64,000 bases of DNA from a virus, in the IMG/VR virus record IMGVR_UViG_3300036766_000194, positions 1-64,000 of that record, one strand, 5' to 3'. Positions 8,836 through 59,738 of the stretch are shown piece after piece. The position numbers and the translations under genes are program-made. Positions within the stretch are counted from its first letter, which is position 1. Each line of letters opens with the position of its first letter. Under the pieces are notes generated by a model. It did no database searches. It saw only the letters and a program-made list of their open reading frames with translations, and had not been told where the DNA came from.

Positions 8836-8911
8836 GGGTGTGTAGCTCATCTGGGAGAGCGTCTCGCTTGCACCGAGAAGGCGGCAGGTTCAAGTCCTGT
8901 CACATCCACCA
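8836..8911 (+). tRNA. tRNA-Ala (TGC)
   Basis: Complete cloverleaf: acceptor GGGTGTG/CACATCC, D-stem GCTC/GAGC, anticodon loop CTTGCAC, T-loop TTCAAGT, encoded CCA. Confidence 0.95.
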
Positions 8912-8956
8912 AAAGTTTTTGCTTCCTGAGGCCGAAAGGCTTTTGGAAGCTCAGTG

Positions 8957-9134
8957 AAACTTGATTCCCGTACCAGGATCCGCGTCTGGTGAGTTAATCT
9001 GTTCAAGGGAATCCCACTTTTAGTCAGGTGGAGAACGGATGAAGTTGGGGATGTAGTCTGATGTCGTAAGATGTTGGGGAACACCATCGGGGGAGGTACC
9101 GCAAGGTACTTCCCTCGGCCAAAACGAGATTACT
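8957..9134 (+). ncRNA. Structured stretch, possible ncRNA or leader
   Basis: Several nested complementarities: GATTCCC (near 8963) with GGGAATC (near 9008) enclosing ACCAG/CTGGT, and a strong GNRA hairpin at 9091-9114 (GGGAGGTACC, loop GCAA, GGTACTTCCC). It ends just before a 36-codon ORF. It could be its leader or an independent RNA. I do not recognise a family. Confidence 0.35.
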
Positions 9135-9245
9135 ATGAAGACGATCACCAACTCGAACCGTTTCACCAAAGGAACGGTAGGAGTGTTTACGGGGATCGTC
9201 GTCGTCACCTTCGGTGGCGAAGATACCAAGGGTATTGAGGGGTAA
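9135..9245 (+). CDS. Small hydrophobic ORF (36 aa)
   Basis: ATG to TAA, 36 aa, basic N-terminus followed by a hydrophobic stretch (GVFTGIVVVTFGG) that could span a membrane once. It lies between tRNA genes after a strong hairpin. No ribosome site stands out, so it may be chance. Confidence 0.3.
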   Translation: MKTITNSNRFTKGTVGVFTGIVVVTFGGEDTKGIEG

Positions 9246-9287
9246 TACCCTCGCTACCCGGACCTACCCAAACAAATTTAACGCATT

Positions 9288-9362
9288 AGCCTGTTAGCTC
9301 ATCGGTCAGAGCGTCCGGTTTACACCCGGAATAGGGGGGTTCAATTCCCTCACGGGCTACCA
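9288..9362 (+). tRNA. tRNA-Val (TAC)
   Basis: Acceptor AGCCTGT/ACGGGCT, anticodon loop TTTACAC (TAC), T-loop TTCAATT, CCA encoded. Confidence 0.92.
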
Positions 9363-9400
9363 AGTTTTTGGAGTTTACTGTGGTTTAGTTTAGAAAGGAG

Positions 9401-9436
9401 TAAACTGGGGTAAACTGGGATAAACTGGAGTAAACT
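9401..9436. repeat. Four tandem 10-bp units of TAAACTGGxx
   Basis: TAAACTGGGG, TAAACTGGGA, TAAACTGGAG and TAAACT follow each other at 9401, 9411, 9421 and 9431. The same core recurs as a perfect inverted repeat at 39430-39473. The flanks (CCAAGTTTTTGGAGTTTA before, CCAAGTTTTTAGAGTTTA after) are near-identical, and GGTACCA at 9456-9462 may be the 3' end of a lost tRNA. Confidence 0.8.
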
Positions 9437-9479
9437 CAGTAGCTTGAGCAGGTATGGCGGTACCAAGTTTTTAGAGTTT

Positions 9480-9554
9480 AGTCGTGAGGCTCTCCGGGTG
9501 AGCACCGTCTTGATAAGGCGGCATGAGTAGGTTCGATTCCTACCACGACTACCA
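9480..9554 (+). tRNA. tRNA-Ile (GAT)
   Basis: Acceptor AGTCGTG/CACGACT, anticodon stem CCGTC/GGCGG with loop TTGATAA (GAT), T-loop TTCGATT, CCA encoded. Confidence 0.93.
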
Positions 9555-9570
9555 AGTTTTGGGATGATCG

Positions 9571-9640
9571 TGGGTCGTAGCTTAATGGTAGAGCAGCGGC
9601 GTTAAGCCGCTGGTGCGAGGTTCGACTCCTCGCCGACTGA
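9571..9640 (+). pseudogene. Degenerate tRNA, probably tRNA-Asn, with shortened anticodon loop
   Basis: D-arm (GCTTAATGGTAGAGC) and T-arm (CGAGG TTCGACT CCTCG) are intact. The anticodon region reads AGCGGC-GTTAA-GCCGCT, leaving a 5-base loop, as if CT had been deleted from a tRNA-Asn loop CTGTTAA. The acceptor has a mismatch (TGGGTCG against CGACTGA) and no CCA follows. It is either a dead tRNA or an unusual RNA. Confidence 0.6.
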
Positions 9641-9721
9641 AATGCGACCGGGATTCCTAAACACGGGGAGGAAGGATTGGCAGCGGCTCGCACCGTCTGT
9701 TGAACTGGACTCCTCGGCTTT

Positions 9722-9795
9722 CCCCTGGTAGCACAATGGGAGTGCCCTGGTCTGAAGAACCAGTTACGGTGGTTCGATTCCACCCCTTGGGACCA
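9722..9795 (+). tRNA. tRNA-Phe (GAA)
   Basis: Anticodon stem CTGGT/ACCAG with loop CTGAAGA (GAA), D-stem GCAC/GTGC, T-arm GGTGG/CCACC, CCA encoded. The acceptor CCCCTGG/CCTTGGG has two adjacent mismatches in its middle, unusual for a working tRNA. Confidence 0.82.
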
Positions 9796-9799
9796 ATTT

Positions 9800-9874
9800 A
9801 GGTGCGTAGCTCAGTGGCTAGAGCGTACCCTTGACATGGGTAAAACGAGTGTTCGATTCACTCCGTGCCTACCA
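9800..9874 (+). tRNA. tRNA-Val (GAC)
   Basis: Acceptor AGGTGCG/CGTGCCT, anticodon loop TTGACAT (GAC), T-loop TTCGATT, CCA encoded. With the TAC gene it covers all Val codons. Confidence 0.92.
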
Positions 9875-9877
9875 TAT

Positions 9878-9952
9878 GCGGGCATAGTTTAATGGCAAAA
9901 CCTCTGCCTTCCAAGCAGATGACCGCCGAATCGGTATCGGCTGCCCGCTCCA
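9878..9952 (+). tRNA. tRNA-Gly (TCC)
   Basis: Acceptor GCGGGCA/TGCCCGC, anticodon stem TCTGC/GCAGA with loop CTTCCAA (TCC), CCA encoded. The T-loop is ATCGGTA rather than TTCRANY, an atypical T-arm. Confidence 0.85.
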
Positions 9953-9988
9953 GAATTTTTGCAGTAGAATAAAACAGGAGTAAAATCT

Positions 9989-10054
9989 GCGGGAGTAGCT
10001 CAACGGTAGAGCGCATCGTTGCCAACGATGATACGTCGGTCCAACACCGCTCCA
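9989..10054 (+). pseudogene. 3'-truncated tRNA-Gly (GCC)
   Basis: The 5' half is a normal tRNA-Gly: GCGGGAG, D-stem GCTC/GAGC, anticodon stem CATCG/CGATG with loop TTGCCAA (GCC). About ten bases are missing from the T-arm and 3' acceptor: only GTCGGTCCAACACCGC then TCCA remains, so the acceptor stem cannot form. The next gene starts 15 bp later. Confidence 0.65.
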
Positions 10055-10068
10055 AAGAAGGTGATTGT

Positions 10069-10617
10069 ATGAATGTCTGGTTGATTCCGGATACCCATTT
10101 CAACCCGAACGGGATTGAAACGTATTGCATCCGGCCAGAAGGATATGGTGAGCGCATTCAAAAGTTGTGGCGCAACACCGTAAAGCCGGAAGACACGGTT
10201 ATCCACCTTGGTGACGTTATCATAGGGGGATATGACAAGGCCAAGGAAATCTTGGACAGTCTGCCGGGGAACAAGATTCTCGTCATGGGAAACCATGACT
10301 GGAGTAAGTCGGCAACCTGGTGGATGCGTAACGGTTTTTCGTTCGCTTGTCACGGAATGCTTTGGGGACGTGTTTGGTTGAGTCATTACCCGGTTGATTT
10401 TTTGCCACAGTACGCAAAGATCAACATTCACGGGCACTGTCACATCAACCGTCGTTCTTGGGCAGGCTTGAATCCGTTTAACAAGCTGTTCTGTCTTGAA
10501 TATGGGCTAGGTGGAAACGTAGCAAGCGCCTACAGTCCTGTCAAGCTGGAAAAGTTCGTGGATTCGAAGAAGATTACGGAATTGGGTGGTGATTACAAGC
10601 ATCCTCTTCCGTGGTAG
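10069..10617 (+). CDS. Calcineurin-like metallophosphoesterase
   Basis: 182 aa. Metal-binding motifs in order: PDTHF (D8, H10), HLGDV near residue 46, MGNHDW near 78, HYP near 107, and HGHCH near residue 121. This is the full set for a small YfcE-like phosphoesterase of the calcineurin superfamily, which hydrolyses phosphodiesters or phosphomonoesters using two metals. It is wedged between tRNA genes; an RNA-end-processing role is possible but unproven. ATG at 10069 follows AAGAAGGTGAT. Three further family members occur in the window (10972, 34016, 35192). Confidence 0.88.
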   Translation: MNVWLIPDTHFNPNGIETYCIRPEGYGERIQKLWRNTVKPEDTVIHLGDVIIGGYDKAKEILDSLPGNKILVMGNHDWSKSATWWMRNGFSFACHGMLWGRVWLSHYPVDFLPQYAKINIHGHCHINRRSWAGLNPFNKLFCLEYGLGGNVASAYSPVKLEKFVDSKKITELGGDYKHPLPW

Positions 10618-10687
10618 TAAAACGGCCCACAGAGAGCCGTGAGAGGGATAGATAAATCCTGTGTGAAATATGCCCTCTCATAATTTT

Positions 10688-10761
10688 GGCCTCGTCGTCT
10701 ATGGGTAGGATCTTGGGTTTTCAACCCAAGTAAGAGAGTTCGAGTCTCTCCGAGGCTACCA
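10688..10761 (+). tRNA. tRNA-Glu (TTC)
   Basis: Acceptor GGCCTCG/CGAGGCT (G1-T72 wobble), anticodon stem TTGGG/CCCAA with loop TTTTCAA (TTC), T-loop TTCGAGT, CCA encoded. Confidence 0.93.
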
Positions 10762-10772
10762 GTTTTAAGTTT

Positions 10773-10847
10773 GGTGCCATGGTCAAGCGGAACTGACGTC
10801 GCCCTGTCACGGCGAAAGCGCGGGTTCAACTCCCGCTGGCACCGCCA
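10773..10847 (+). tRNA. tRNA-Asp (GTC)
   Basis: Acceptor GGTGCCA/TGGCACC, anticodon loop CTGTCAC (GTC), T-loop TTCAACT, discriminator G and encoded CCA. Confidence 0.93.
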
Positions 10848-10855
10848 TTTTCTTT

Positions 10856-10932
10856 GGCGCGTTAGTGCAGAGGCCCAGCACACTTGGTTCTCAACCAAGA
10901 AATCACCAGTTCGAATCTGGTACGCGCTACCA
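10856..10932 (+). tRNA. tRNA-Glu (CTC)
   Basis: Acceptor GGCGCGT/ACGCGCT, D-stem GTGC/GCAC, anticodon stem CTTGG/CCAAG with loop TTCTCAA (CTC), T-loop TTCGAAT, CCA encoded. Confidence 0.93.
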
Positions 10933-30603: not shown

Positions 30604-31953
30604 GTGGCCGTGGACACAGAAACTGGTATGAAATTTTCTCCCAATAGGATTGATACCAACAAACCTCTCAAAGAGGGAGATAGAGTGACTGCGCCACTCG
30701 AAGTCATTAAGCAGTACGTGGAGAATCAGAAAATGTCTGACCAGAAGCGTGGCATAAAAGGACGAGTGTATTTGACACCAGAAGAGGTGTCTCCCGCTGC
30801 GCAAGCATTCGGCTGCGACCGCTTCGTCTATAACCACCTTTTGGAATTTGAGCAGAATAGGTATGCCACAGACCAGACCAAAACAAACAAGAAAGACAGG
30901 AACATCGAATTCAATCGTCTCAAGCAAGAATTTCCTTGGCTGTATGATGTCAACGCTCAGATGCTTCAGCAGTCCACGAGGAAACTGGATACAGCGTGGG
31001 ACAATTTCTTCGCCACCTGCAAAACAACGAAACATTGGAGACGCCCGAAGTTCAAAAAGAAAACGAACAGGCAGTCAGCACGGTTCACCAAAGGTTCATT
31101 CAAGTTCGAGAACGGCGTGCTCACCCTCTCCAAAATTGGAGACATCTCAATACCTTGGTATCGCCGAGTAAAAGGCGAGCCATCATCTGTCGTTCTTAGC
31201 ATGACGCCTTCGGGTCGATATTATGCGTCGTTTCAAGTCGAGCAGCCGTTGCGTGTAGTCGGCTCCGCAATCAATCAGGTTGCCTCAATTGACATCAACA
31301 CCAAGACTTTCAATTTCTTTAACGGCAGGACGTATTCGCATGTTGCTCTGCCCCGCCCGTTGCTCGGTGCTCTGTCGCGGCTCCGCACGGCACAGAAGCA
31401 CCTGAGCCGCTGCACCAAAGGCTCCAAGAATCGGGAGAAAGCCCGTCTCAAAGTCGCCAAGATTCACCAGCGGGTGTCAGACATCCGCACTGATTTTCTC
31501 CAGAAGTTAAGCACTCAACTTGTTCACGAGAACCAAGTGATAGTAGTTGAAACGCTTCGCACCAAGAACATGCTCAAGAATCGCCATCTGTCTCGTGCAA
31601 TTTCAGATGCAGGCTTCGGCGGCTTCCTCCGCATGTTGGAATACAAGTGCAAGTGGTATGGCAGAATGCTCGTCAAAGTAAACACGTTCTTCCCATCATC
31701 AAAGTTGTGCTGCATTTGTCGAGAGAAGAATGCAGACCTCAAACTCCAAGACCGCTGGCAGTGCCCGAATTGCAAGACGGAACACCAGCGAGACGAGAAT
31801 GCTGTCGTAAACATTTTCGTAGAGGGTTTGAGAATCTTAGCCGAGGGACGCTCGGTATCAGCCTGCGGAGGCACAGCAAGACCTAATCGCAAGATTAGGC
31901 GTGTGCCTGTGAAGCAGGAAACATCGTTGGAGACGAGCAGCAATGCTGCTTAG
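30604..31953 (+). mobile_element. tnpB: TnpB-type RNA-guided nuclease gene (IS200/IS605 family, IS1341-like, no TnpA)
   Basis: 449 aa as read from GTG 30604; the TnpB proper begins near residue 44 (MSDQKRGIKGRVYL), with CDRFVYNHLLEF as the usual N-terminal block. RuvC-like catalytic residues: D in SIDINTKTFNF, E in VVETLRTKNML, D in QRDENAVVNI. A zinc ribbon CCIC...CPNC lies between the last two. No TnpA gene is near, so it is a TnpB-only element. The first 43 residues (KPLKEGDRVTAPLEV) look like the start of another phage gene into which the element inserted. Confidence 0.88.
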
Positions 31954-38702: not shown

Positions 38703-38776
38703 CGGAGTGTACGTGGACGGACGACGGCAGGCGTCGGAAGCCTGAGCACCCGGTTCAATTCCGGGCACTCCGACCA
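38703..38776 (+). tRNA. tRNA-Pro (CGG)
   Basis: Acceptor CGGAGTG/CACTCCG, anticodon stem CAGGC/GCCTG with loop GTCGGAA (CGG), T-arm CCCGG/CCGGG, CCA encoded. The D-arm is short. Confidence 0.88.
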
Positions 38777-38782
38777 ATTTTT

Positions 38783-38861
38783 CGGGAAGTAGCGCAGCCT
38801 GGTCCAACGCGCCTGCTTTGGAAGCAGGAGGTCGTGGGTTCAAATCCCACCTTCCCGACCA
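38783..38861 (+). tRNA. tRNA-Pro (TGG), first copy
   Basis: Acceptor CGGGAAG/CTTCCCG, anticodon stem CCTGC/GCAGG with loop TTTGGAA (TGG), T-loop TTCAAAT, CCA encoded. Confidence 0.92.
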
Positions 38862-38875
38862 AGTTTTTAGTTTTA

Positions 38876-38949
38876 CGGGGACAAGTGTTAAGGCCGCATA
38901 TATGCTTTGGGAGCATAGGGTCGGAGTTCAATTCTCCGGTCCCCGACCA
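38876..38949 (+). tRNA. tRNA-Pro (TGG), second copy
   Basis: Acceptor CGGGGAC/GTCCCCG, anticodon stem TATGC/GCATA with loop TTTGGGA (TGG with G37, the usual Pro residue), CCA encoded. Different body from the first TGG copy. Confidence 0.88.
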
Positions 38950-39331
38950 GGAGCCGGAAGCCGTTGAAGAGTAAGCCTTGTAGAAGGCAACGGCAGGCTC
39001 CTCGTAATTTCTGTAGGGAGCAGCCGCCGTAAGGCGGAGGACGAGGCTGCAGTTGAAAGAGCCGTGGGGAAAGAGTGCCATTATCCTAACCCGTAAGGGA
39101 AGGACCTAAGTCCTGAGGGGAGCGTGGGTGAAACGCCTCCTGCTCACAGATTTTCGTTGTGGAAGATGCAGACCCCAACTTAATGGGGAGTCGGATTCGC
39201 ACAAGGAAAGATTCGGTCTAGTAGCCAAGTCTAACCGACCCAGGCGGATTTGCCGATAAACGGAGGAGCAGCTTTCCTGGAGCCTAGTGTTCCGTTGGAA
39301 GGTAAGACTTCACCGAACGCAACGGAAGTTT
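38950..39331 (+). ncRNA. Unassigned highly structured RNA candidate A
   Basis: About 380 bases between two tRNA-Pro genes with no plausible ORF. Many strong pairings: GGAGCC (38950) with GGCTCC (38996) around CCGTTG/CAACGG; CGCC-GTAA-GGCG near 39028; CAACGGAA near 39320 with TTCCGTTG near 39291. Not RNase P (that is at 41514), not tmRNA as far as I can see. No family assigned. Confidence 0.5.
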
Positions 39332-39332
39332 C

Positions 39333-39409
39333 GGGGACGTAGCGAAGCCTGTTATCGCGCACCCTTGGGGTGGGTGAGATCGCTGGTTAAAATCCAGTCG
39401 TCCCGACCA
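39333..39409 (+). tRNA. tRNA-Pro (GGG)
   Basis: Acceptor GGGGACG/CGTCCCG (G1-G72 mismatch, or C at 39332 pairs), anticodon stem CACCC/GGGTG with loop TTGGGGT (GGG), T-loop TTAAAAT, CCA encoded. The T-loop lacks the usual TTC. Confidence 0.82.
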
Positions 39410-39418
39410 AACTTGTCT

Positions 39419-40021
39419 GTGATATATCAAGTTTACCCCAGTTTATGTGATTGTGGCCTAAACTGGGGTAAACTTCGTATAGCCTTTTATAAATACGATG
39501 GTAGCAATCTACGCTGGGAGTGGGCACCCAAACGTGGCTGGTACAAGTATGGTACCCGGACGCAACTTTTTAATGAGACTGATCCGTTGTTCGGTCAGGC
39601 TATTCCCATATTCCAAGATACCATGGGAGCGGAAATAGCTCGTCGTTGTAAGGATGCCGAACGCGGAGTACAGAGAATTATTGTTTATACGGAATTCTTT
39701 GGACCTTCTAGCTTCGCCGGAGAGCATGAATTGGCGGAACCAAAGAAATTGAAGTTGTTTGACATTAAGTTGTACAAACGTGGAATAATGTCTCCGCGAC
39801 AGTTCGTAAAAACTTTTGGAGATTTGCCTTATTCAGCGCAAGTGACTTATGAAGGCAACCTTAACAAGCAATTTATTGATGATGTTCGTAAGGGAGTCTA
39901 TCCCGTTTGGGAAGGAGTCGTAGCCAAGGGGGATGATTTTATAATAAAGATAAAAACGGACATATACTTTAAAAAATTGAATGAAGTTTACGGAACCGAG
40001 TATAGGAACTATTGGGAATGA
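39419..40021 (+). CDS. RNA ligase (Rnl2/T4-type nucleotidyltransferase), start uncertain
   Basis: About 200 aa from GTG 39419 (TTG 39413 also possible). Adenylation motif FYKYDGSNLRWEW gives the KxDG lysine; VYTEFFG is motif IIIa-like; WEGVVAKG is motif IV; IIKIKTD is motif V. These are the nucleotidyltransferase motifs of ATP-dependent RNA ligases, which seal tRNA or other RNA breaks. The N-terminus before the motif is only about 25 residues, shorter than usual, and is encoded by a perfect inverted repeat, so the 5' end looks lost or rearranged. Located among tRNA genes and rnpB. Confidence 0.8.
   Translation: MIYQVYPSLCDCGLNWGKLRIAFYKYDGSNLRWEWAPKRGWYKYGTRTQLFNETDPLFGQAIPIFQDTMGAEIARRCKDAERGVQRIIVYTEFFGPSSFAGEHELAEPKKLKLFDIKLYKRGIMSPRQFVKTFGDLPYSAQVTYEGNLNKQFIDDVRKGVYPVWEGVVAKGDDFIIKIKTDIYFKKLNEVYGTEYRNYWE
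39429..39475. repeat. Perfect 17-bp inverted repeat
   Basis: AAGTTTACCCCAGTTTA (39429-39445) is the exact reverse complement of TAAACTGGGGTAAACTT (39459-39475), 13 bases apart. The unit matches the tandem TAAACTGG repeats at 9401-9436 in the other tRNA array. It overlaps the RNA ligase 5' region. Confidence 0.9.
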
Positions 40022-40081: not shown

Positions 40082-40158
40082 GGCTCTGTCGTATAATGGT
40101 CCAGTACGCCGCTCTCATAAAGCGGAGACGGTAGGTTCAATTCCTCCCAGAGCTACCA
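40082..40158 (+). tRNA. tRNA-Met/Ile2 (CAT)
   Basis: Acceptor GGCTCTG/CAGAGCT, anticodon stem CCGCT/AGCGG with loop CTCATAA (CAT), T-loop TTCAATT, CCA encoded. Could be elongator Met or a lysidine-modified Ile tRNA. Confidence 0.88.
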
Positions 40159-40611: not shown

Positions 40612-41060
40612 GGTTAGGGGAAGTTCAAGCTCAACTTGGACTTCCCGTATTAAATTGCAGGGATAGGTATGGGGCGACAAAAGGGCAGCAAAACCATGCT
40701 GACTATAAATCGCCTGCCTTTTCGAGACGCCATAGCGCCTCGAAGGGAACCCAGCCTTTGATGGTTGGTCCTGCATGCGCACTTGAGCCGCTCTCCGGGA
40801 AGGCTCATGACGAAGAGAACTTCTTTCTTGAAGTTCTCTTCGACCCCGGTAAATTTTAAGGTGGCAGATCCGTCAAGATGTGAACGGCGACCGTTCCGGA
40901 TACTAATACCCAAAGGTCGAAAATCATGGGAGCCACCATGAAAATTGAACGTGCTGTGGTGTAATGGAGCACGCACGGTAGAATCCGTAATCCATCAGGG
41001 CTAAGAGGTCCCAGACGAGTCTGGGTAGCGCGTTCAATACTTTTAAATAAAGAAATAGGA
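40612..41060 (+). ncRNA. Unassigned highly structured RNA candidate B
   Basis: About 450 bases without a credible gene. Strong stems: GGGGAAGTTCAAG/CTTGGACTTCCC near 40617-40645; AAAAGGGCAG/CTGCCTTTT around 40679-40722; GCAGG (about 40657) with CCTGC (about 40771); the perfect GAAGAGAACTTC/GAAGTTCTCTTC at about 40814-40843; GGTGGC/GCCACC around 40860-40938; CCCAGAC/GTCTGGG near 41011-41026. Outer pieces TTGAAC near 40948 and GTTCAA near 41032 also pair. No known family recognised. Confidence 0.5.
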
Positions 41061-41513: not shown

Positions 41514-41895
41514 GATTTGTGATGGACTGGACTGTCGCTGGCGACTGCTAGAATGAGTTGCGGGAGGAAGTTCGGGGCAGCATCAGAGCAACGTGCCAGG
41601 TAATAACTGGGCATCGGAGAAATCCGATGACGGAAAGTGGAACAGAAAATAACCGCCACGGCGCAAGCCGGGGTAAGGGTGCAAAGGTAGGGTAAGAGCC
41701 TACCAGCACGGCGGTAACGTCGTGGCTGCTAAACCCCACGTGCTGCAATGCCAAATAAGGATGGGATGATCTGCTCGATCGTTTTTCTCATCCGGGTAGG
41801 CAGCTTGAGATCATAGGTGACTATGATCCTAGACGAATGACAGTCACTCAGCATGGGCTGATGACAGAACCCCGGCTATAGGTTCATCACAAATG
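41514..41895 (+). ncRNA. rnpB: RNase P RNA (M1-like, bacterial type A)
   Basis: Long stretches match M1 RNA landmarks in order: GGAGGAAGTTCGGGGC (P4 5' side with its bulged U), GTGCCAGGTAA, GTGGAACAGAAAA, ACCGCC, GGGTAAGGGTGCAAAGG, TAAGAGCCTACCAGC, GGTAACG, TAAACCCC, GCAATGCCAAATAAGG, GGGTAGGC..CTTGAG, and ACAGAACCCCGGCTATAG (P4 3' side). P1 is closed by ATTTGTGATG (41515) and CATCACAAAT (41885-41894). It cleaves tRNA 5' leaders as the catalytic RNA of RNase P. The L15 loop has no obvious GGU for binding the CCA end. Length about 380, normal. Found in a phage-like tRNA island, unusual. Confidence 0.93.
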
Positions 41896-42180
41896 AAAAA
41901 TAGTCACAAACGTGAGTCTAAACAATTGGGAATAAATGTCCAAACGGCAACCAATCGTTTGGTTAGAATGCTGCTGTTCAAATTCGCCCTCGAAACAAAG
42001 AGGGAGAATTGGAATAAATTCCCAACGATTTGCTGATTTCTCTAGGGTATTGAAGTAGAAGGCTGTGGTGCGTGGAGGAATTCCACGACGTTACTTACCA
42101 ACTCTCTGTAAACAGAGAAATTTGGGAGTGGCAGTGAATCACTTTTTACTTCAATGTTTTTAGTTTTAGCAGTATTAGTA
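41896..42180 (+). ncRNA. Unassigned structured RNA candidates C
   Basis: Two structured blocks follow rnpB. First (41925-42040): TTGGGAAT paired with ATTCCCAA around CCAAACG/CGTTTGG and CCCTC/GAGGG hairpins. Second (about 42048-42165): outer stem ATTGAAGTA/TACTTCAAT enclosing GTGGAGGAATTCCAC and CTCTCTG/CAGAGAA stems, followed by a T-rich tail. No ORF. Confidence 0.45.
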
Positions 42181-42188
42181 GACTACAG

Positions 42189-42299
42189 CGCGGGGTGGAG
42201 CAGCCAGGTAGCTCGTTTGCCTCACGGAGAGGAATCCTAACGGGTTTCTCTTCGACCATAAGCAAAAGGTCGTCCGTTCAAATCGGACCCCCGCACCCA
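42189..42299 (+). tRNA. tRNA-Met, initiator-like (CAT), with 34-nt hairpin insert in the anticodon loop
   Basis: Acceptor CGCGGGG/CCCCGCA keeps the C1-A72 mismatch of initiators; D-arm GAGC/GCTC; T-arm GTCCG/CGGAC; CCA encoded. The anticodon arm is TTTGC...GCAAA, but the loop CTCATAA is broken by 34 bases. The insert folds into a 13-bp stem with TAAC loop (CGGAGAGGAATCC/GGGTTTCTCTTCG). It is not a group I or bulge-helix-bulge intron. The anticodon stem also lacks the three G-C pairs of initiators. Confidence 0.8.
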
Positions 42300-42924: not shown

Positions 42925-43002
42925 TGCGGGGATAGAGCAAAGGTAGCTCGGGAGTCTCATAAACTCCACGATGGCAGGTTTCGATACCGCCCCCCGCTAC
43001 CA
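42925..43002 (+). tRNA. tRNA-Met-like (CAT)
   Basis: Anticodon stem GGAGT/ACTCC with loop CTCATAA (CAT), D-stem GAGC/GCTC, acceptor GCGGGG/CCCCGC, CCA encoded. The T-stem has an extra A (GGCAGG against CCGCC) and position 1 pairs poorly, so it may be weak or non-functional. Confidence 0.75.
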
Positions 43003-46207: not shown

Positions 46208-47164
46208 TTAAGAGACTTGTTCTTTGATCCATCTGTAGGTCGGGATAAGACCATCAGCAAGTAAGGTCTTGGGTTCCCATCCGAGGACTTGGCGGAGGAG
46301 ACTATTGTCACTGTTGCGCCCACGTACCCCTTGGGGCTTGGTAAGATCGTGCTTCTTCGTCAGGCTCTTTCCCGCGATACCACAAACGAGGTCTACCAGG
46401 CCATCTATTGTAACCAATTCATCAGTTCCCAGGTTGAGAGGTTTTTGGTAGTCGGACGCCATCAAGCGCAGAATACCTTCCACGCAGTCGTTAATGTACA
46501 TGTAAGATCGGGTTGCCTGCCCGTCACCCCATATTTCAATCTCTCCACCGTTTTGTGCTAGAGCCACTTTGCGGCAAATTGCCGCAGGAGACTTTTCCTT
46601 GCCACCTTCATAAGTTCCCAGTGGGCCGTAGACGTTATGAAATCGTACTATGCGGATGTTTAGACCATAGTCCTTAGCGTAGTATTCACACATCTGTTCG
46701 GCAAAGAGTTTCTCCCAGCCGTAGCCGGGTTCCGGGAGTGCCGGATAAGCGTCCTCTTCCTTGAGTGGTGTCACGTTAGCATCGCGCTGTTTGTCTTGGT
46801 TATAGACACAGGCCGAAGAGGTGTAGAGATATTTTCCCACCTTGAAATTCTTGGCTTCTTCCAGCATGTTGACGTTAATCAGAATGTTGTTGCGAGCGAT
46901 ATCGGCCAGGTACTGTGTAATGTAGCCGATTCCACCCATGTCCGCTGCGAGATTATAGACCTCGTCAAAAGTCTCGTCATTGAAAGAGTGAACCGCGTTA
47001 GCCGCATGACGTAGATCATAAATCCAAAAATCATCAGCAACAGTCCGCTCAAACTCGGGATACTTGATGTCAATACCCCGGACAAAGTTTCCCTCAGCCT
47101 TGAGCCGTTTGACAAGATGATGTCCAATGAAACCACCTGCTCCAGTTACAAGAACTTTCTTCAT
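46208..47164 (-). CDS. GDP-mannose 3,5-epimerase-like NAD-dependent epimerase
   Basis: 318 aa from ATG 47164. VTGAGGFIGHHL is the Rossmann NAD motif; YNLAADMGGIGYI and YGWEKLF (the YxxxK catalytic pair) are characteristic of GDP-mannose 3,5-epimerases, as are KSPAAICRKV and WGDGQATRSYMYI. The known reaction converts GDP-mannose to GDP-L-galactose and GDP-L-gulose. A longer start at 47191 would overlap the upstream gene. Four-base overlap with the dehydrogenase; last gene of the operon. Confidence 0.85.
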   Translation of the reverse strand: MKKVLVTGAGGFIGHHLVKRLKAEGNFVRGIDIKYPEFERTVADDFWIYDLRHAANAVHSFNDETFDEVYNLAADMGGIGYITQYLADIARNNILINVNMLEEAKNFKVGKYLYTSSACVYNQDKQRDANVTPLKEEDAYPALPEPGYGWEKLFAEQMCEYYAKDYGLNIRIVRFHNVYGPLGTYEGGKEKSPAAICRKVALAQNGGEIEIWGDGQATRSYMYINDCVEGILRLMASDYQKPLNLGTDELVTIDGLVDLVCGIAGKSLTKKHDLTKPQGVRGRNSDNSLLRQVLGWEPKTLLADGLIPTYRWIKEQVS

Positions 47165-48489
47165 TTGTCTTCTCCAACACCTAAAGGCCAATACTTAATC
47201 CCATTACACTCTGCAAGATTAGGTAATACACGCCAACAATCAACAACGATGCGGTCGGTTCCCGAACCGTCACGACGTTGCTCGGCAGTACGTGCCCAAG
47301 CGGTTGGTTCAAGAGCAATTACTTCAGGATAGGGAAGCATCACAATGACCAAATCAGTTTCTTCAATACATTGACGCAAATCAGTCATTCTTTTCACACC
47401 TCTTAGTATAGGACTAGAAAACAAGGGATCATAAACATAGAGGTCAACATATTTTTCATGAAGCGCAAGCATCATTTTCCAACCTGCCGATTCTTCAATG
47501 ACTTCGGATCCTATTTTGTAAGTTAATCCTATGATAGCTACTCGACGTCCTAGTGCTCGACTCATCACTCTTTTTACTAGTGAATCAACACGGTGAATAT
47601 TACTATTATGAACTTCTCTAGGAACAGAGACATCAACACCTAAAGATTCTCCCAGAGCCTTTAATGCAACATTGTCTCTCGGGAAACAGGGACCACCGAA
47701 GGCGACGCCACCCTTGAGGTATTTTATCCCGATACGACTATCGGCTCCAATTGCCGCCGCAACCACATCAACGTTGGCTCCCGATAATTTGTCACAAAAA
47801 TCAGCCAGCATGTTCGCATACGCGATTTTTGTAGTCACGAACGTGTTGACGGCAATCTTCGTCAACTCAGCCTCGACGGGCTTCATAAGAGCGATTATGG
47901 GAAAACTGTTAACAAATGTGCCATAGAATGTCTTCAGCGTGTCCCCGACACGGGAGTCGTCTGTTCCAATGAGGAGCAAGTCGGGGTTGTGTAAATCGTG
48001 AATCACGGACCCGAGTGCGATAAATTCCGGATTGTACGCAACACCGAAATCAACACCGTGTTTCTTTCCACTGGCGTGCTCAAGTGCCGCTGTGACCTCT
48101 GCTGTCTGACCAGGCATGACCGTGCTTGTCAAGATGATAGTGTGGTATGTGCTCTTTTGTGAGATGGCCGCACCGATACTTTCGCAAACGGGGAGCACAT
48201 ATTTAAGGGAAAATTTGCCATCTTCTTGTGAAGGCGTGGCGACAATGATGAAGGTCATATCGGTGTTGATAATTGCAGAACCCGTGTCAGTGGTGGCTGA
48301 GAGACGATTGGGTGGTAAAGAGCTTATAAGCTCTTCGAGTCCCGGTTCGCCGACGGGAGCATGACCGGAGTTAACGGTGTCACACTTGCTTGCATCGAGG
48401 TCCACGCCAATCAACATGTGGCCCGCCGCCGCGAAAACTGCACACATTGGAGAACCAAGTTTGCCGAGACCGATTACAGAAATTTTCAT
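47161..48489 (-). CDS. UDP-glucose/GDP-mannose 6-dehydrogenase family protein
   Basis: 442 aa from ATG 48489. VIGLGKLGSPMCAVF (NAD motif), ATPSQEDGKF, STVMPGQT, YNPEFIALG, GGPCFPRDN (catalytic Cys) and ESAGWKMM cover the three domains of nucleotide-sugar 6-dehydrogenases, which make uronic acids. Which sugar is not clear. Start at 48519 would add ten residues. It overlaps both neighbours by 4 bp. Confidence 0.85.
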   Translation of the reverse strand: MKISVIGLGKLGSPMCAVFAAAGHMLIGVDLDASKCDTVNSGHAPVGEPGLEELISSLPPNRLSATTDTGSAIINTDMTFIIVATPSQEDGKFSLKYVLPVCESIGAAISQKSTYHTIILTSTVMPGQTAEVTAALEHASGKKHGVDFGVAYNPEFIALGSVIHDLHNPDLLLIGTDDSRVGDTLKTFYGTFVNSFPIIALMKPVEAELTKIAVNTFVTTKIAYANMLADFCDKLSGANVDVVAAAIGADSRIGIKYLKGGVAFGGPCFPRDNVALKALGESLGVDVSVPREVHNSNIHRVDSLVKRVMSRALGRRVAIIGLTYKIGSEVIEESAGWKMMLALHEKYVDLYVYDPLFSSPILRGVKRMTDLRQCIEETDLVIVMLPYPEVIALEPTAWARTAEQRRDGSGTDRIVVDCWRVLPNLAECNGIKYWPLGVGEDK

Positions 48490-49256
48490 ATTGGCTCCGC
48501 TGTAATTAATAGATGCCAACCCAAAAATCGTTCAAGGATATGGAAGAGAACATTAGGCATCCAGCGGTAGTACCAGCATTTCACATATCGATGTTGAATG
48601 TAATCCGAAATCTTCCAAGGGAAAATATGGGTCTTACGAATCTCCGTGACCTTGAATCCCGCCTCATTTAACAGATCCTTAACTTCCTCCTTCGTCCATA
48701 CAGTAGCAATCGGACATCCAGCCTGAGCTTCCGGTTGTTGCATAGTAAGGTTCTTGATGCTCCACTTGGCATACAACATGATTTTAATCGTTGTGCCTTT
48801 GTGACAATATTTTCGCATTTCTTTAAGAACAGCTTCAGGATTAGGTGTGTGGTGAATGACACCAAACGAATAGATCAAATCGTAAGGTTCAACCGGGACG
48901 TACTTGGATAATTCTTCTGCATTGAGTTGGTAGAACGTGATCCAATCTTGAAGACTATAGACTTGCGAACGTTGGATTGAGAGCTTGAGAGATTCGTCGG
49001 ACAGATCAACGGCAGTGACCTTGCAGCCATACCGGGCGAAATTCATCGTATCGGTGCCAATTCCACATCCAACCTCTAAGACTTTGGAATCTTTGTGTTG
49101 AAAGAAATCTGCAAAGCCGGGTATGTGCGGTTCTACAAAATATTTTCGTTGCTCAACTTCATCAAAATATTGCCTGCTGCCAACGGGAGCTGTAGAGTGC
49201 CGTAGATTGCACGGCCTGGCATCCCAAAAATATCTAATAGTTTCAATTGTTGTCAT
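48486..49256 (-). CDS. SAM-dependent methyltransferase (class I)
   Basis: 256 aa from ATG 49256. VLEVGCGIGTDT is motif I, VTAVDLSDES the acidic loop, and YSFGVIHHTPNP motif IV/V of UbiE-like methyltransferases. Substrate is probably a sugar or lipid-linked glycan given the operon. Frame open further upstream to 49379, but that runs into the next gene. Confidence 0.8.
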   Translation of the reverse strand: MTTIETIRYFWDARPCNLRHSTAPVGSRQYFDEVEQRKYFVEPHIPGFADFFQHKDSKVLEVGCGIGTDTMNFARYGCKVTAVDLSDESLKLSIQRSQVYSLQDWITFYQLNAEELSKYVPVEPYDLIYSFGVIHHTPNPEAVLKEMRKYCHKGTTIKIMLYAKWSIKNLTMQQPEAQAGCPIATVWTKEEVKDLLNEAGFKVTEIRKTHIFPWKISDYIQHRYVKCWYYRWMPNVLFHILERFLGWHLLITAEPI

Positions 49257-49302
49257 CGCAACCCCTGATATCATTTTGGGTTGCGTAAAGCCTTTTAGAT
49301 GA

Positions 49303-50442
49303 TTAAATATCAGATTGTGTGGGGATAAAGAATTTTCCTTCATAGTTATACTTGAAACGTTCCATGATTTCCTGAGCATAATTCCATGAGAAGATGCAAG
49401 TGTAATCAGGTCGCGCTTCTAACCAATTCTTTGGATATAGAACCTCAGTTCTGGTTCCTGGAATAAATTTTTGAAATTTAGCCGGGGCATCATCTGCAAC
49501 TGCTTCAATCAAAGTGTGATCAATGTTGCAATAATTCATCATGACGGTTGCCTTAGCCGCCGCACCGAAACCCCATACTCGTTTGCCTTTTTCTTTTAAT
49601 TTAAGTAGGGTACTTTTTAGTTTGACGGCGATTTCATCTACTTGTTGTTGAAGTGTTGGCACTCCTTCTAGCCCCCACTCTTCAAACTGACAAGAAGTCC
49701 CGTTCTTGCTTGCTGTAATGCGCAGAGAACCCCCTTGTGATTCTAGATGCTCCACTTCTTGAATGTGAAGTCCATTTCGACCGAATAGGATGGCTAGAGA
49801 TTTGAAAGAAAAATAGAAAACATGCTCATGATAGATGGTGTCAAAATTGCCCTTACTTATTAAATCTCCAAAATAGGGAACTTCCACGATACAAACCCCG
49901 TCGGGCTTCAAAACTTCTGCGATTCCTGCAACAAAGTCATTGGTGCTGGGTACATGAGCTAAGACATTGTTAGCGTGAATCACATCGGCTTTGGGAAGTT
50001 GCTTCGCCAATTTCAGGGAGAAGAAATCTTGTACAGTGGGAATTCCTTTTAGGGCAGCTTCGTTAGCAGGTCCTCGCGCCGGATCTATTCCCAAGACCTG
50101 AATTCCTAACCCGTCATAGAACTGTAGTAAATAGCCGTCATTGCTTGCGATTTCTATCACCAAGGCATCTTCAGAGAGAGTTTTGCTAACCCGTTCTACC
50201 AAAGTTCGTGCCGCATTGACAACAGAATTGGACACTGTAGAATAGTAGAGATACTCCACAAACATCTTTTCAGGTAGCACAACGTCTCGTAATTGTCCTA
50301 GCGAACATGATAAACAATACATTACTTCTAGAGGATAGCACTCAAATGGAGAATCGGCGGTAGTCAGCAATTCGTTGGCAAGAGGCTGTTTCTTCAAGGA
50401 AAGAACTAGTTCAGTTGGCGCTCCACAACTTCTACAATTCAT
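49303..50442 (-). CDS. Sugar C-methyltransferase (Methyltransf_13/14 type)
   Basis: 379 aa. N-terminal CRSCGAP plus YCLSCSLGQ form the four-Cys zinc domain; IEIASNDGYLLQ is motif I; YHEHVFYFSF and VWGFGAAAKATVMMNY are the conserved blocks of NDP-hexose C-3-methyltransferases such as TylC3. It would add a methyl group to a keto-sugar nucleotide, giving a branched deoxysugar. Four-base overlap with the epimerase upstream. Confidence 0.85.
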   Translation of the reverse strand: MNCRSCGAPTELVLSLKKQPLANELLTTADSPFECYPLEVMYCLSCSLGQLRDVVLPEKMFVEYLYYSTVSNSVVNAARTLVERVSKTLSEDALVIEIASNDGYLLQFYDGLGIQVLGIDPARGPANEAALKGIPTVQDFFSLKLAKQLPKADVIHANNVLAHVPSTNDFVAGIAEVLKPDGVCIVEVPYFGDLISKGNFDTIYHEHVFYFSFKSLAILFGRNGLHIQEVEHLESQGGSLRITASKNGTSCQFEEWGLEGVPTLQQQVDEIAVKLKSTLLKLKEKGKRVWGFGAAAKATVMMNYCNIDHTLIEAVADDAPAKFQKFIPGTRTEVLYPKNWLEARPDYTCIFSWNYAQEIMERFKYNYEGKFFIPTQSDI

Positions 50443-51377
50443 AGACTTAACCCCTCAAGCATTTTGATGTTATAGTATTTTGGACTATCCCAATCGGAAA
50501 AACTCTCAACATTTGCCACCAATTCCTCCACTATCTGTTCCACCTTTTGTTGAGGATGGAATGACAAAATTGCTTTTGCTTTTGCCGTAGAAATCTTGTA
50601 ATTTCTAAGATCGGGACCCGATTTTGTTTTGACATTAACTTGGAGTATATCCGCAACTATTTTTCCAACTTTTCCCACCGTGTAGTTTTCAGAGGCAATG
50701 TTGAATGCTCCAGAAATAGCAAGATCGGCCTCTGTTGCTTTGATATATGCTTGAGTTGCATCGGAGATGCTTAGAATGGGTCTCCAAACCTCGGGGTTAA
50801 CAACCGTGATAGCCTTATCTTTCAGAGCTGATTTTACCATCGCATTCACAATAAGATCTAAACGCATGCGAGGACTATACCCACACACCGTTCCCATGCG
50901 GAATGCGATTACAGAAAAGATTTCATCTTGTAAGTGCAAAACTCCTTGCTCCCCAAGAAGTTTAGACATTGCGTAGGGGTGAGAACAAGAAGGGGAAAAA
51001 GTCTCTCTACACGATTCGTTTAGGGGAGCTTCATAGACTGAACAAGTGCTGGCATAGATAAATCGTTTAACCCCAGCCCGTTTGGCACAATATGCAAGAT
51101 AACTAGGAGCTGCCGCATTGAAGATGAAATTCTTTGCAGGCAAGATTTCAGCAGTAGGAACACTAGAAACTCCGGCCACAAAGATCACTTGATCGTACTG
51201 TTCTAGATCAGACTCTACTAGTTTGAAAACATCATTTTGGATTAGTTTAACGCTTGTGGGTAGGTAATTTCCAAACCAAAGTAGGTCTATGACATCTACG
51301 TCATATCCATGTTCCAACAAGGCTGGCACAAGCCGTGAACCAAGATATCCCGCTCCACCTGCAACTAGAATCTTCAT
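50439..51377 (-). CDS. NAD-dependent nucleotide-sugar epimerase/dehydratase
   Basis: 312 aa. VAGGAGYLGSRLV (NAD-binding), ASTCSVYEA and YAMSK (catalytic Tyr/Lys) are standard for extended short-chain dehydrogenases that epimerise or dehydrate nucleotide sugars. RFIYASTCSVYEAPLNES supports the family. Exact substrate not visible; with the C-methyltransferase it may feed a methyl-branched deoxysugar. Confidence 0.82.
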   Translation of the reverse strand: MKILVAGGAGYLGSRLVPALLEHGYDVDVIDLLWFGNYLPTSVKLIQNDVFKLVESDLEQYDQVIFVAGVSSVPTAEILPAKNFIFNAAAPSYLAYCAKRAGVKRFIYASTCSVYEAPLNESCRETFSPSCSHPYAMSKLLGEQGVLHLQDEIFSVIAFRMGTVCGYSPRMRLDLIVNAMVKSALKDKAITVVNPEVWRPILSISDATQAYIKATEADLAISGAFNIASENYTVGKVGKIVADILQVNVKTKSGPDLRNYKISTAKAKAILSFHPQQKVEQIVEELVANVESFSDWDSPKYYNIKMLEGLSL

Positions 51378-51415
51378 TCAATCTTCCCCTCTTTAGAGAG
51401 GGAAAGTCATGATTT

Positions 51416-51568
51416 TTAGAGATTTTCTAACTTTCCTGTACGCATCTTACGACCCCAATTGTCTTTAGCACATTCATCGCAAAGGACAATAACACTATCG
51501 TCGTAGCACCGTTCTTGGACGGTTTTGTCTTGCTTGGCGCAATATTGGCACATCAGTTCTTCAGACAT
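51416..51568 (-). CDS. Small zinc-ribbon protein
   Basis: 50 aa from ATG 51568. MCQYCAKQ and VLCDECAK give two CxxC pairs, a zinc ribbon. Overlaps the end of the glycosyltransferase-like gene by eight bases. Possibly a regulator or accessory of the operon. Confidence 0.55.
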   Translation of the reverse strand: MSEELMCQYCAKQDKTVQERCYDDSVIVLCDECAKDNWGRKMRTGKLENL

Positions 51569-52505
51569 TATGTGTTCTAAGACGAGCAGCCTGTTCAATG
51601 GCATTCACTCTATTTATGTATGTATGTTTTGCCGCAACTTCATCCATTAATTCATGCAAATCCTTGAGTGGAATTTGAGGCAGCTGTTCTTTTGCTGTAT
51701 AGAATAATTGGCGTGAATCTGAGTTGAAGATTAGACGGTCTTCAAAAACTGCATTAACATGTTTGGATGTTGTCACTCCATATTGACCATACGAGATATT
51801 CTTAAAGATTCGGCAAGGCGCATATCCTTGCATCTGAGAATTCGCGGGAATCGTTGGCGCGATATACGATTCCTGGACTAGTCTGATATTTTCTTCCAGA
51901 GTAACAGGAGGAGTACCAGAATAACCGCCTATAGCTCGGAACTCAATACCATTCTTTTGGCATTCATCAGCAAAAGGTGGAACGGTGCCACCGTTGTGTC
52001 GGGGTTCGTAAGTACCCACCCAATTGACCACTTTGCTTTCACTACGAAACACCCGATTGGGTTTGAGTGCTTCTATCTCGTGTGGAAGTAGATCAGTTGC
52101 CCATTGTATTTCCACCCCGTTTGGCGGGACAAAATAGGTGTTGATTGCAAGTTTGACGCAACCAGGCACACGGAGTTCACGATGTGTTCGTTCTTCTTCG
52201 TAATAATAGCACCAGAAATGGAGTTGAGGACAGTCTACAAGATATTCTCGGCACTTCGGGTCACCACCGTTGTAGTTAACATAAAGACAATCTTTACGCC
52301 GGGGGATATTAAGACATACATCATTTTCAGTTAGGAAGAGAGTGTTGGAAAAGTCAGAACCGTCATCTTCGTCAAGCCAGCGCACGTTCTTTCCCATGAA
52401 CTGAAGCGCCCTGTAGAACCCCGCGTGGATATAGGTGTGAGTATGCCAGTTATTCTTGAACCCCCAGATCACCCAGTTACAAGTGTCAAGGTTGAATTCA
52501 TTCAT
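51561..52505 (-). CDS. Glycosyltransferase-like protein (CgeB/YkvP-type)
   Basis: 314 aa from ATG 52505. Ends with NISYGQYGVTTSKHVNAVFED, resembling the phosphate/nucleotide-binding block of glycosyltransferase-family-1-like proteins that end in a DUF3880/CgeB style. The N-terminus (NWVIWGFKNNWHTHTYIHAG) reads like a glycan-acting enzyme. Overlaps the next gene by eight bases. Assignment by context and partial similarity. Confidence 0.55.
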   Translation of the reverse strand: MNEFNLDTCNWVIWGFKNNWHTHTYIHAGFYRALQFMGKNVRWLDEDDGSDFSNTLFLTENDVCLNIPRRKDCLYVNYNGGDPKCREYLVDCPQLHFWCYYYEEERTHRELRVPGCVKLAINTYFVPPNGVEIQWATDLLPHEIEALKPNRVFRSESKVVNWVGTYEPRHNGGTVPPFADECQKNGIEFRAIGGYSGTPPVTLEENIRLVQESYIAPTIPANSQMQGYAPCRIFKNISYGQYGVTTSKHVNAVFEDRLIFNSDSRQLFYTAKEQLPQIPLKDLHELMDEVAAKHTYINRVNAIEQAARLRTHNV

Positions 52506-53052
52506 GTGTCCACCAATCTTCAAAAGGAGTACGATTTTGATTCGGTCCCCAAGCTGGAGCAAGAACATCTGGCTTGATTAAGGTATAACCCGCACCAGAT
52601 AGAAGTTCCCGTTCTTTACGTTTAATTTCAGGTTCGTTATCGTGTTCTATCGTGATGACGTGAAATGAAAATCCAGCTTCTAATAATGCTTTCATAATGT
52701 CAGGTTCTTCGTCCATTAGGTCTAATGAAAGAAAGTCAATGATGCTGCCCAAGCCTGCTGCGGTTAATTCAGTTTTCCAATCAATGGTTAGCGCGTTTTC
52801 GCAAATGGCGTGGGTTATCCGCGAAGTGTTAAATTTTGCAACAATTTCAGGATTGTAGTCTACGCCAACCCCATGCCAACCGATTAGTTCCAAGCCATAA
52901 GTATTGTTGCAATCAAAAGGATCACCACAACCAATGTCTAAGAATGTTCCAGTGGAAAGTTTATGAGCCTTCGCCCAATCGTAGGCAAAACGGTCTTGTT
53001 CAACTTCTCCAAATGCTTTGTAGTTCATAAAGCTAAAACTTTCTTCAGCCAT
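52498..53052 (-). CDS. Methyltransferase-like protein (FkbM-like core)
   Basis: 184 aa. FLDIGCGDPFDCNNTY (motif I) and GVGVDYNPEI, then SIIDFLSLDLMDEEPDI, show a Rossmann methyltransferase fold; the LSLDLM position matches KMDIEG of the FkbM family. It overlaps the adjacent genes by a few bases in the compact operon. Confidence 0.7.
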   Translation of the reverse strand: MAEESFSFMNYKAFGEVEQDRFAYDWAKAHKLSTGTFLDIGCGDPFDCNNTYGLELIGWHGVGVDYNPEIVAKFNTSRITHAICENALTIDWKTELTAAGLGSIIDFLSLDLMDEEPDIMKALLEAGFSFHVITIEHDNEPEIKRKERELLSGAGYTLIKPDVLAPAWGPNQNRTPFEDWWTHE

Positions 53053-53831
53053 ATAGTTTTTTTGGCATGATAGTCATTTGATTGATGATTCCAATTAGAA
53101 CCGCTCACATAGTGTAGAATGGTAGGTGTGGTTTCTAACCAGTATTTCATGTAATTAGCAGGGGCAAAATCTACTTGAGGGTCATCGTAAATGCGTTCTT
53201 CTTTGACGTGAAGTCTAGTTAATTCTGGATGTGCTCTTAGATAGCAAAAGGTCTGACCACCTACATCTACTGGGATGCCTTCGGCTTTTCCACACCACCA
53301 ATTAATGCTTTCTGGTTCTGGAATTTGGCTTAAATCAGCTAAGAAAAAACCGCTATGCATATGTTCTGCACTTCTACCTACCGGAGTGTTGGAACTCTGT
53401 GGAACATAGATTATTTGATACTTTTGCAGATAATCTGTCAAACGGACAGGAGTCATCAGAAACATATCTGATTCAATAAACAATATCGGACCTTTTTCTT
53501 TTACAATGTAATTGTCCCAAGCCCAAGCGAGCGGATATGCGCAAGCAATACACGCATTGTAATATTCACCTGCTGAGGTAAATAGGGGGCAGGCTTCAAA
53601 ACTTTGGTAGTGATCTACTGTGGTTTGTTCTTTAATAACATCAATCATTGGAAGTCCCAGCCGTTCACACTCTGAGCGAATTTGTTTGGCGATTTGTTTA
53701 TCGTTGAGATCAAAGTGTGCGTTGTTAAGAATGGTGAGTATAAAATCTTCTTGCAGATGTTTTTGAAAGGACTTTAGTTGTAATTCGATAAAATCCGGTC
53801 GCTTATGTGAGGAAGTATAGATCTTTAGCAT
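53025..53831 (-). CDS. Glycosyltransferase (GT-A type)
   Basis: 268 aa. IYTSSHKRPDFIELQLKSFQ opens like GT-A nucleotide-sugar binding domains, and LFIESDMFLM supplies the DxD-like acidic pair near residue 118. HSGFFLADL and HYVSGSNWNH near the end are plausible acceptor-side loops. Specific sugar unknown. Confidence 0.65.
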   Translation of the reverse strand: MLKIYTSSHKRPDFIELQLKSFQKHLQEDFILTILNNAHFDLNDKQIAKQIRSECERLGLPMIDVIKEQTTVDHYQSFEACPLFTSAGEYYNACIACAYPLAWAWDNYIVKEKGPILFIESDMFLMTPVRLTDYLQKYQIIYVPQSSNTPVGRSAEHMHSGFFLADLSQIPEPESINWWCGKAEGIPVDVGGQTFCYLRAHPELTRLHVKEERIYDDPQVDFAPANYMKYWLETTPTILHYVSGSNWNHQSNDYHAKKTIWLKKVLAL

Positions 53832-53840
53832 CTTTGGTTC

Positions 53841-54506
53841 CTATTCGGTCAAACCCAATGAACGTAGTTTATTTCTCACATCCCAATACAAAGAGTTGCT
53901 TGTGGGCCATTCGGCATGGAACTCAACTTGCATTTGTTTGATATGATTTTTTAAAACTTCTGGTCCGGTGCTCATAATCACTTCGTGCTCTGCCCCTTCT
54001 ATATCCATTTTTACAAAATCCCAAATGGTGTCACCAAGAGCATCTGTAAGAGACACACAAGGTACCATAGTTGCGTCTGATATACCGCTTGTTTGAATTA
54101 GCCCATTACGACAAAAGTGTCCTCTTTCTGACTTGTGCCCACCACCTTGAAATTTTATTTCTCCTGTATATGTCCATATGGCCGCGTTGATGGCACTGAC
54201 CTTTAGACCAGTTTGCGTAAGCATATCGGTCAAGATTTTATAAGTTATAGGATCAGCTTCATAAGCAGTAACTTTAGCCCCATTAAGCGCCCAATACGCA
54301 GTAAGCAGCCCTGCGTTCGCCCCAATATCCAGGACGTTAGCTCCTGAAAATGGTTTGAAGTGTTGTTCATTATCGAGTATAAGAGTTTCTACGGACCATG
54401 GATTGTCTAAAGAGTCATGTTCATGTGTAAATTCAGGATGTTCCGAAGCCATTCGCGACCAGATCCTTAAACATGCTTCTTTGTGGGTTTCTTCTCTATC
54501 CTTCAT
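53841..54506 (-). CDS. FkbM-family methyltransferase
   Basis: 221 aa. VLDIGANAGLLTAYW and VTAYEADPITYKIL, then FVKMDIEGAEHEVI near 165 are the diagnostic FkbM signature (KMDIEGAE). Family members O-methylate sugars. Overlaps the next gene by 11 bases. Confidence 0.85.
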   Translation of the reverse strand: MKDREETHKEACLRIWSRMASEHPEFTHEHDSLDNPWSVETLILDNEQHFKPFSGANVLDIGANAGLLTAYWALNGAKVTAYEADPITYKILTDMLTQTGLKVSAINAAIWTYTGEIKFQGGGHKSERGHFCRNGLIQTSGISDATMVPCVSLTDALGDTIWDFVKMDIEGAEHEVIMSTGPEVLKNHIKQMQVEFHAEWPTSNSLYWDVRNKLRSLGLTE

Positions 54507-59697: not shown

Positions 59698-59738
59698 GCA
59701 GTATAAAGGAAGTCAGGATTTCAGGACCTTTGCAAATC

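Follow-up and report, generated by a model that had tools for sequence, protein, structure and literature searches.

Complete class A RNase P RNA gene with an altered P4 helix in a tRNA island of a jumbo phage

Few ancient ribozymes are almost universal in cells; RNase P RNA is among them and is regarded as a host housekeeping gene. T4-like phages use the RNase P of their host to mature their tRNAs, so the need for a phage copy is not obvious. An apparent RNase P RNA gene (rnpB) in the IMG/VR virus record IMGVR_UViG_3300036766_000194 (299,875 bp) raises the question of whether the gene belongs to the phage and, if so, what it does there. We analysed the first 64,000 nucleotides of this record (hereafter the window), together with the remainder of the record and other viral contigs.

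In the window, cmscan identified a plus-strand match to RNaseP_bact_a (RF00010) at 41519-41894 that covers model positions 1-367 of 367 with 255.4 bits (E 4.6e-82), above the curated Rfam cut-off of 100 bits over the whole model. This is the single RNase P RNA match in the entire record. P1 comprises 13 bp (ATTTGTGATGGAC paired with GTTCATCACAAAT) and adds 4 bp beyond the covariance match, giving a gene extent of about 41515-41894. The predicted fold is 5.6 sd better than dinucleotide shuffles (z -5.6). Both P4 strands, P1, the J11/12 core, the L15 core and GNRA-type loops are present, and the class A periphery (P13/P14 and the P16-P18 region) is covered without loss in the covariance-model alignment. 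The initial annotation, made by reading the letters and open reading frames, had called an apparently complete rnpB at 41514-41895 from its P4, P1 and conserved loops, and had suggested a covariance score and a fold as checks; both agree with it, as do the coordinates. The locus is a complete class A RNase P RNA encoded by a phage. The promoter-like site seen upstream in a promoter scan does not exceed chance.

The annotation had also raised the concern that the contig might be bacterial chromosome, which it is not. Gene content, read from four stretches of the record, includes a tail sheath (phrog_2839), a prohead protease (phrog_18299), RIIA (phrog_612; 2.4e-119), RIIB (phrog_609), an RNA ligase/tail-fibre attachment protein with an intein-like insertion (phrog_562), an NAD-dependent DNA ligase and a tRNA nucleotidyltransferase (phrog_2244; CCA-adding enzyme at 115.4 kb of the record). 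The window itself encodes a phage-type helicase with inteins and a UvsX-like recombinase. Ribosomal protein S8 was not found in the record, and all control genomes were positive. Because the sheath, protease, RIIA/RIIB and other phage genes are present and S8 is absent, we assign the contig to a jumbo myophage; host contamination of the window was rejected on the same grounds. The rnpB gene is located in the phage genome, away from a prophage-host junction. Pfam Terminase_6N had no match in the record, and Portal_T4 matched neither the record nor any control. Elsewhere in the window are two helicase genes with intein and LAGLIDADG homing-endonuclease domains (15166-17934 and 59649-63917), an IS605 OrfB/TnpB-type protein with a Cas12f1-like TNB domain (30604-31953, +) and a sugar-nucleotide/glycan cluster encoding UDP-glucose dehydrogenase, epimerases, methyltransferases and glycosyltransferases (46208-58625, -).

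ARAGORN identified 16 tRNA genes in the window and an additional, interrupted one; they form two islands, at 8.8-10.9 kb and 38.7-43.0 kb, and CCA is encoded in 15 of the 16. The rnpB gene lies in the latter island with tRNA genes on both sides, between a tRNA-Met and an interrupted initiator-like tRNA (Table 1). This agrees with the proposed placement in a tRNA island next to an RNA ligase, although the adjacent ORF resembles phage RNA ligases weakly. The number of tRNA genes in the window is somewhat lower than the "about 20" of the initial annotation. The true start of the ligase-like ORF is probably after the tRNA-Pro (39333-39409) that it overlaps. Without its 34-nt insertion, the interrupted tRNA has the anticodon loop CTCATAA and aligns over its full length with E. 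coli tRNA-fMet, and ARAGORN -i labels it Val(cac) with a 34-nt intron. The insertion forms a strong hairpin, and an RNA ligase gene is near. Two further plus-strand segments beside rnpB (40944-41037 and 42050-42152) adopt strong tRNA-like folds with long closing stems and were uncalled by ARAGORN and cmscan. In the other island, a weak tRNA (9571-9641, +; 34.9 bits) lacks an encoded CCA and has the anticodon TTA, which would read the stop codon UAA.

Table 1. Coordinates in the window of rnpB, its conserved regions and the surrounding tRNA genes.
Feature	Position	Strand	Evidence
Other tRNA island, 10 tRNA genes, several 3-9 nt apart	8836..10932	+	cmscan, ARAGORN
Three tRNA-Pro (CGG, TGG, TGG), CCA-encoded, same island as rnpB	38703..38949	+	ARAGORN
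RNA-ligase-like ORF, about 1.5 kb upstream of rnpB	39287..40021	+	phrog_548, E 1.2e-5 (weak)
tRNA-Pro (GGG), CCA-encoded	39333..39409	+	cmscan, ARAGORN
tRNA-Met (CAT), CCA-encoded, upstream of rnpB	40082..40158	+	cmscan, ARAGORN
Full-length class A rnpB with its 13-bp P1	41515..41894	+	RF00010 match, P1 pairing, fold z
CR-I GAGGAAGTTCGGGGC (bacterial consensus GAGGAAAGTCCGGGC), covering J3/4 and the 5' P4 strand that holds the bulged U	41564..41578	+	direct sequence
L15 CCGGGTAGGC; GGU at 41795-41797 = E. coli G292-U294, tRNA CCA-binding site	41792..41801	+	same as E. coli M1 RNA stretch
CR-V ACAGAACCCCGGCTATAG, 3' strand of P4; bacterial consensus ACAGAACCCGGCTTA	41864..41881	+	direct sequence
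Initiator-like tRNA-fMet with 34-nt hairpin interrupting anticodon loop, downstream of rnpB	42189..42299	+	ARAGORN -i
tRNA-Met (CAT), encoded ACCA after it	42926..42998	+	ARAGORN

In bacterial RNase P, the tRNA 3' ACC pairs with G292-U294 (PMC9433436). E. coli G292-G293-U294 sits within CCGGGUAGGC, and L15 of the window carries the identical ten bases. The earlier statement that L15 lacks the GGU pairing with the CCA end was therefore mistaken, and an altered substrate specificity arising from such a loss is not supported, given the GGU and the CCA encoded in nearly all window tRNAs. The L15 site is intact, which fits the CCA that the phage tRNAs encode.

The search for rnpA (PF00825) in the rest of the genome, also suggested with the annotation, detected none in the record, nor in any of the other rnpB-bearing viral records (0 of 28 in total), and all ten expected controls were positive. 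The CCA-adding domain PF01743 was found in 13 of these 28 records, including 11 of the 12 above 250 kb. In this genomic context, the simplest reading, and a likely one, is that the phage RNA employs host RnpA and that the phage supplies CCA repair. Maturation of phage tRNAs is likely, though unproved, and is the best-supported role. Overall, we think it probable that the class A RNase P RNA of this jumbo phage is functional, belongs to a phage lineage of long standing, joins host RnpA and matures phage tRNAs; its expression, assembly, catalysis and substrates are what we infer. The gene would be transcribed during infection, with or near the phage tRNA genes, and the RNA, in a phage without a recognisable rnpA, would assemble with host RnpA. 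The hybrid enzyme could then remove 5' leaders from phage pre-tRNAs, whose encoded CCA would be recognised via the L15 GGU, and the phage CCA-adding enzyme and RNA ligase may act on those same tRNAs. Cleavage would rely on the usual two-metal centre at bulged U69, within a P4 that has changed in sequence and retained its pairing.

That P4 is altered yet base-pair-compensated was overlooked in the initial annotation. The bacterial 5' strand of P4 is GAGGAAAGUCC; in the window this strand reads GAGGAAGUUCGGGGC, and its 3' counterpart reads ACAGAACCCCGGCUAUAG. The near-invariant bacterial sequence AAAGUCC / GGCUU is absent, and G67, U68 and G71 occur with compensating partners: A67-U is replaced by G-C, G68-C by U.G and C71-G by G-C, and the bulged U69 is retained. 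All P4 pairs form, as A66-U, G67-C, U68.G, U69 bulged, C70-G, G71-C, G72-C, G73-C and G74-C; an alternative register, with U68 as the bulged base instead of U69, is equally possible. Among bacterial RNAs in which P4 was parsed (79, drawn from a search of 42 Pseudomonadota and 40 Bacteroidota and from two others), position 71 is C in 79 of 79 and position 67 is A in all but two. We further defined as invariant the 49 positions conserved in at least 97% of 85 bacterial RNAs, 42 of which the window rnpB retains. The seven deviations are G68U with C358G, C71G with G356C, C128G with G230C, and A180C alone. Six thus form three compensated pairs, two in P4 (68-358 and 71-356) and one in the P7 region (128-230), and the S domain has one uncompensated change (A180C, or else a one-base shift). 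The chance bound for three compensated pairs among seven deviations is about 0.001, even with all positions taken as paired, so the pattern is not that of a decaying copy. The catalytic ion touches the phosphates of 67 and 68 plus O4 of U69 (PMC9433436); thus, changed bases at 67 and 68 with retained pairing need not destroy the catalytic site.

The state of P4 also bears on whether the RNA could be a competitor or decoy, binding host RnpA or precursor tRNAs and lowering or redirecting host RNase P without efficient cleavage of its own. The altered sequence around the metal site would suit such a role, as would the missing rnpA in 28 of 28 records, since the RNA must then share the host protein or act alone. 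However, a pure decoy needs no paired changes in its catalytic helix, and here P4 pairing is kept by compensation alongside bulged U69, C70, the L15 GGU and J11/12. We therefore consider this alternative improbable.

The survey of other phages for rnpB suggested with the annotation yielded many carriers. The J11/12-J12/11 core pattern occurs at 24 loci in viral contigs, all RNase P RNA, and a 3'-end pattern brought further viral RNase P RNA loci. Besides that of the window, 20 viral records of at least 94 kb (94-481 kb) carry rnpB (L003, L004, L012, L013, L015, L021, L023, L024, L025, L041, L062, L065, L074, L078, L081, L082, L084, L085, L086 and L087, the last being the record of L044). L041 was recognised by conserved motifs, not by cmscan, and a further locus, L089, consists of the 3' end only. 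Related genes are found in independent phages (L003-L025 in part, L057/L087, L062, L065, L074, L078, L082, L084, L086 and others). Most phage rnpB genes sit within dense tRNA clusters (10 to 30 tRNAs at many loci), in contigs of up to 463 kb; around L003, L004, L012 and L041, tRNAs are sparse or distant within the stretch examined. Because it recurs in independent large viral contigs, mostly in tRNA clusters, the window rnpB is not a stray host gene. A jumbo phage with a ClpX-like gene 47% identical to that of the window has its own rnpB at a different location. In most of the large phage contigs, G-C, A-U or U.G stands in place of the C71-G pair, and L057, L062 and L065 are without P13/P14.

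RNase P also processes tmRNA, and tmRNA genes lie near rnpB in six phage contigs (L015, L024, L087, L088, L074 and L080). Permuted tmRNA genes and a GOLLD RNA occur beside divergent RNase P RNAs at L074 7151-7485, L080 2169-2416 and L086 5070-5488. The main substrates could accordingly be other RNAs (tmRNA, phage or host mRNAs), with the tRNA clusters merely a genomic home. The tmRNA neighbours favour this, but cmscan found no tmRNA in the window and the constant neighbour is a dense tRNA cluster. We regard it as a still less probable explanation than a decoy.

Several of these phage RNAs share the P4 of the window. Its 5' pattern identified three more RNase P RNAs in viral contigs (L062, L064 and L065), all in tRNA clusters; L063 was rejected as a chance match within coding sequence. 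A separate search with the 3' pattern gave eleven loci, with a matching 5' strand in all eleven (L080 with one inserted base). Of the resulting twelve variant RNAs, including the window, seven have G-C and five have C-G at pair 71-356, and pair 74-353 is represented by all four Watson-Crick types plus one mismatch. In about 85,000 prokaryotic genomes, the one exact 5' pattern had eight matches, 0 of them in rnpB, and these GAGGAAGTTC matches in eight bacterial genomes were rejected as rnpB candidates. L074, L075, L079, L081 and L086 score 66-93 bits, below the Rfam cut-off of 100, yet with E values of 7e-18 or better, so routine annotation misses them. By eye, the S domain is reduced in L064 and L075-L081. 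Two phage groups (L064, L075, L076, L077 and L081; L074, L079, L080 and L086) keep the catalytic domain and have a reduced or unrecognisable specificity domain. The window rnpB is one of a recurrent and diverse family in large phages, with a rebuilt active-site helix that did not turn up in sampled bacteria, although a search with one exact 5' pattern is not proof of absence. Large phages may even hold their own class of RNase P RNA, with a re-paired helix (G67-C, U68.G, U69, G/C at 71) and in some cases a reduced or unrecognisable specificity domain, forming hybrid enzymes with host RnpA or acting alone and tuned to phage tRNA clusters; we put this forward as a tentative proposal.

The best identity of the window rnpB to any sampled rnpB is 64%. 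In a maximum-likelihood tree, the window and most phage RNAs form a few phage groups that lie outside the sampled bacteria, and suspected prophage-edge copies (L005, L008, L009, L014, L016, L022 and L090) fall among bacteria. L025 lies beside an actinobacterial sequence, and Variovorax L096 among phages. At such size and divergence, RNase P RNA trees are weak and their long branches meet, and we used the tree only against a recent copy from a sampled host. Judged by these comparisons, the window rnpB was not recently copied from a sampled host. A recently captured, non-functional passenger copy of host rnpB is conceivable, as host rnpB does occur at prophage edges in some viral contigs (for example L005, L009 and L016, which group with bacteria, and L181). 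However, the low identity, the tree position with phage sequences, deviations compensated in pairs and conserved loops without decay make such an origin very unlikely.

Small viral contigs with the canonical CCGGG P4 (L005, L008 and L026-L040) were excluded because they are likely prophage edges. The window rnpB had no blastn match in INPHARED, where several other phage rnpBs matched only "Bacteriophage sp." gut metagenome records and host-DNA-like records. Acinetobacter phage MD-2021a was rejected as host-like DNA (a prophage beside coaD and rnpB), as was a contig filed among phages that is Salmonella DNA. The RNase P-like match of "Microcystis phage MaAM05" (L180, MW495066.1) is surrounded by fliM, glyS, mtgA, engB and fabI, and the record looks like bacterial chromosome. 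Such errors do occur, but an assembly artefact or misclassified bacterial contig is scarcely credible for the window, given the phage structural and RIIA/RIIB genes and missing S8 on the record, the flanking tRNA genes within 1.5 kb of rnpB and a like arrangement in many independent contigs.

No report of a phage-encoded rnpB was found in the open-access literature searched, with subscription papers and preprints mostly outside it, and we regard its novelty as provisional. Jumbo phages have been described with tRNAs, tmRNA, CCA-adding enzymes and synthetases, RNase P being absent from the main text (Al-Shayeb et al. 2020, PMC7162821), and one report on megaphages states that their only RNAs were tRNAs and a tmRNA (PMC8172020). 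If true, a recurrent phage lineage of rnpB would mean that viruses keep their own ribozyme for tRNA maturation, many copies of which score too low in Rfam to be noticed. The phage RNAs are also natural P4 variants, with pairing-compensated changes of A67, G68 and C71 beside the metal ligand U69, and could offer a direct test of which nucleotides are important by identity and which by helix shape only.

The window rnpB resembles E. coli M1 RNA and RF00010 in its full model length, its P1-P18 layout including P13/P14 and P18, the bulged U in P4 and the L15 GGU, and it shares the J11/12 ACAGAAA-ACCGCC and GGTAAGGGTG motifs with bacterial class A RNAs. Unlike these, it is encoded by a phage, has other pairs at P4 positions 67-359, 68-358 and 71-356 and at 128-230 in the P7 region, and is at most about 60-64% identical to the sampled bacterial RNAs. 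The same genomes contain a CCA-adding enzyme and many tRNAs, as do the translation gene sets described for jumbo phages (Al-Shayeb et al. 2020, PMC7162821). HARP, a protein-only form of RNase P known from some bacteria and archaea (reviewed in PMC6380272), likewise gives tRNA 5' maturation a second route that moves horizontally; HARP acts as a protein, whereas the phage agent would be an RNA.
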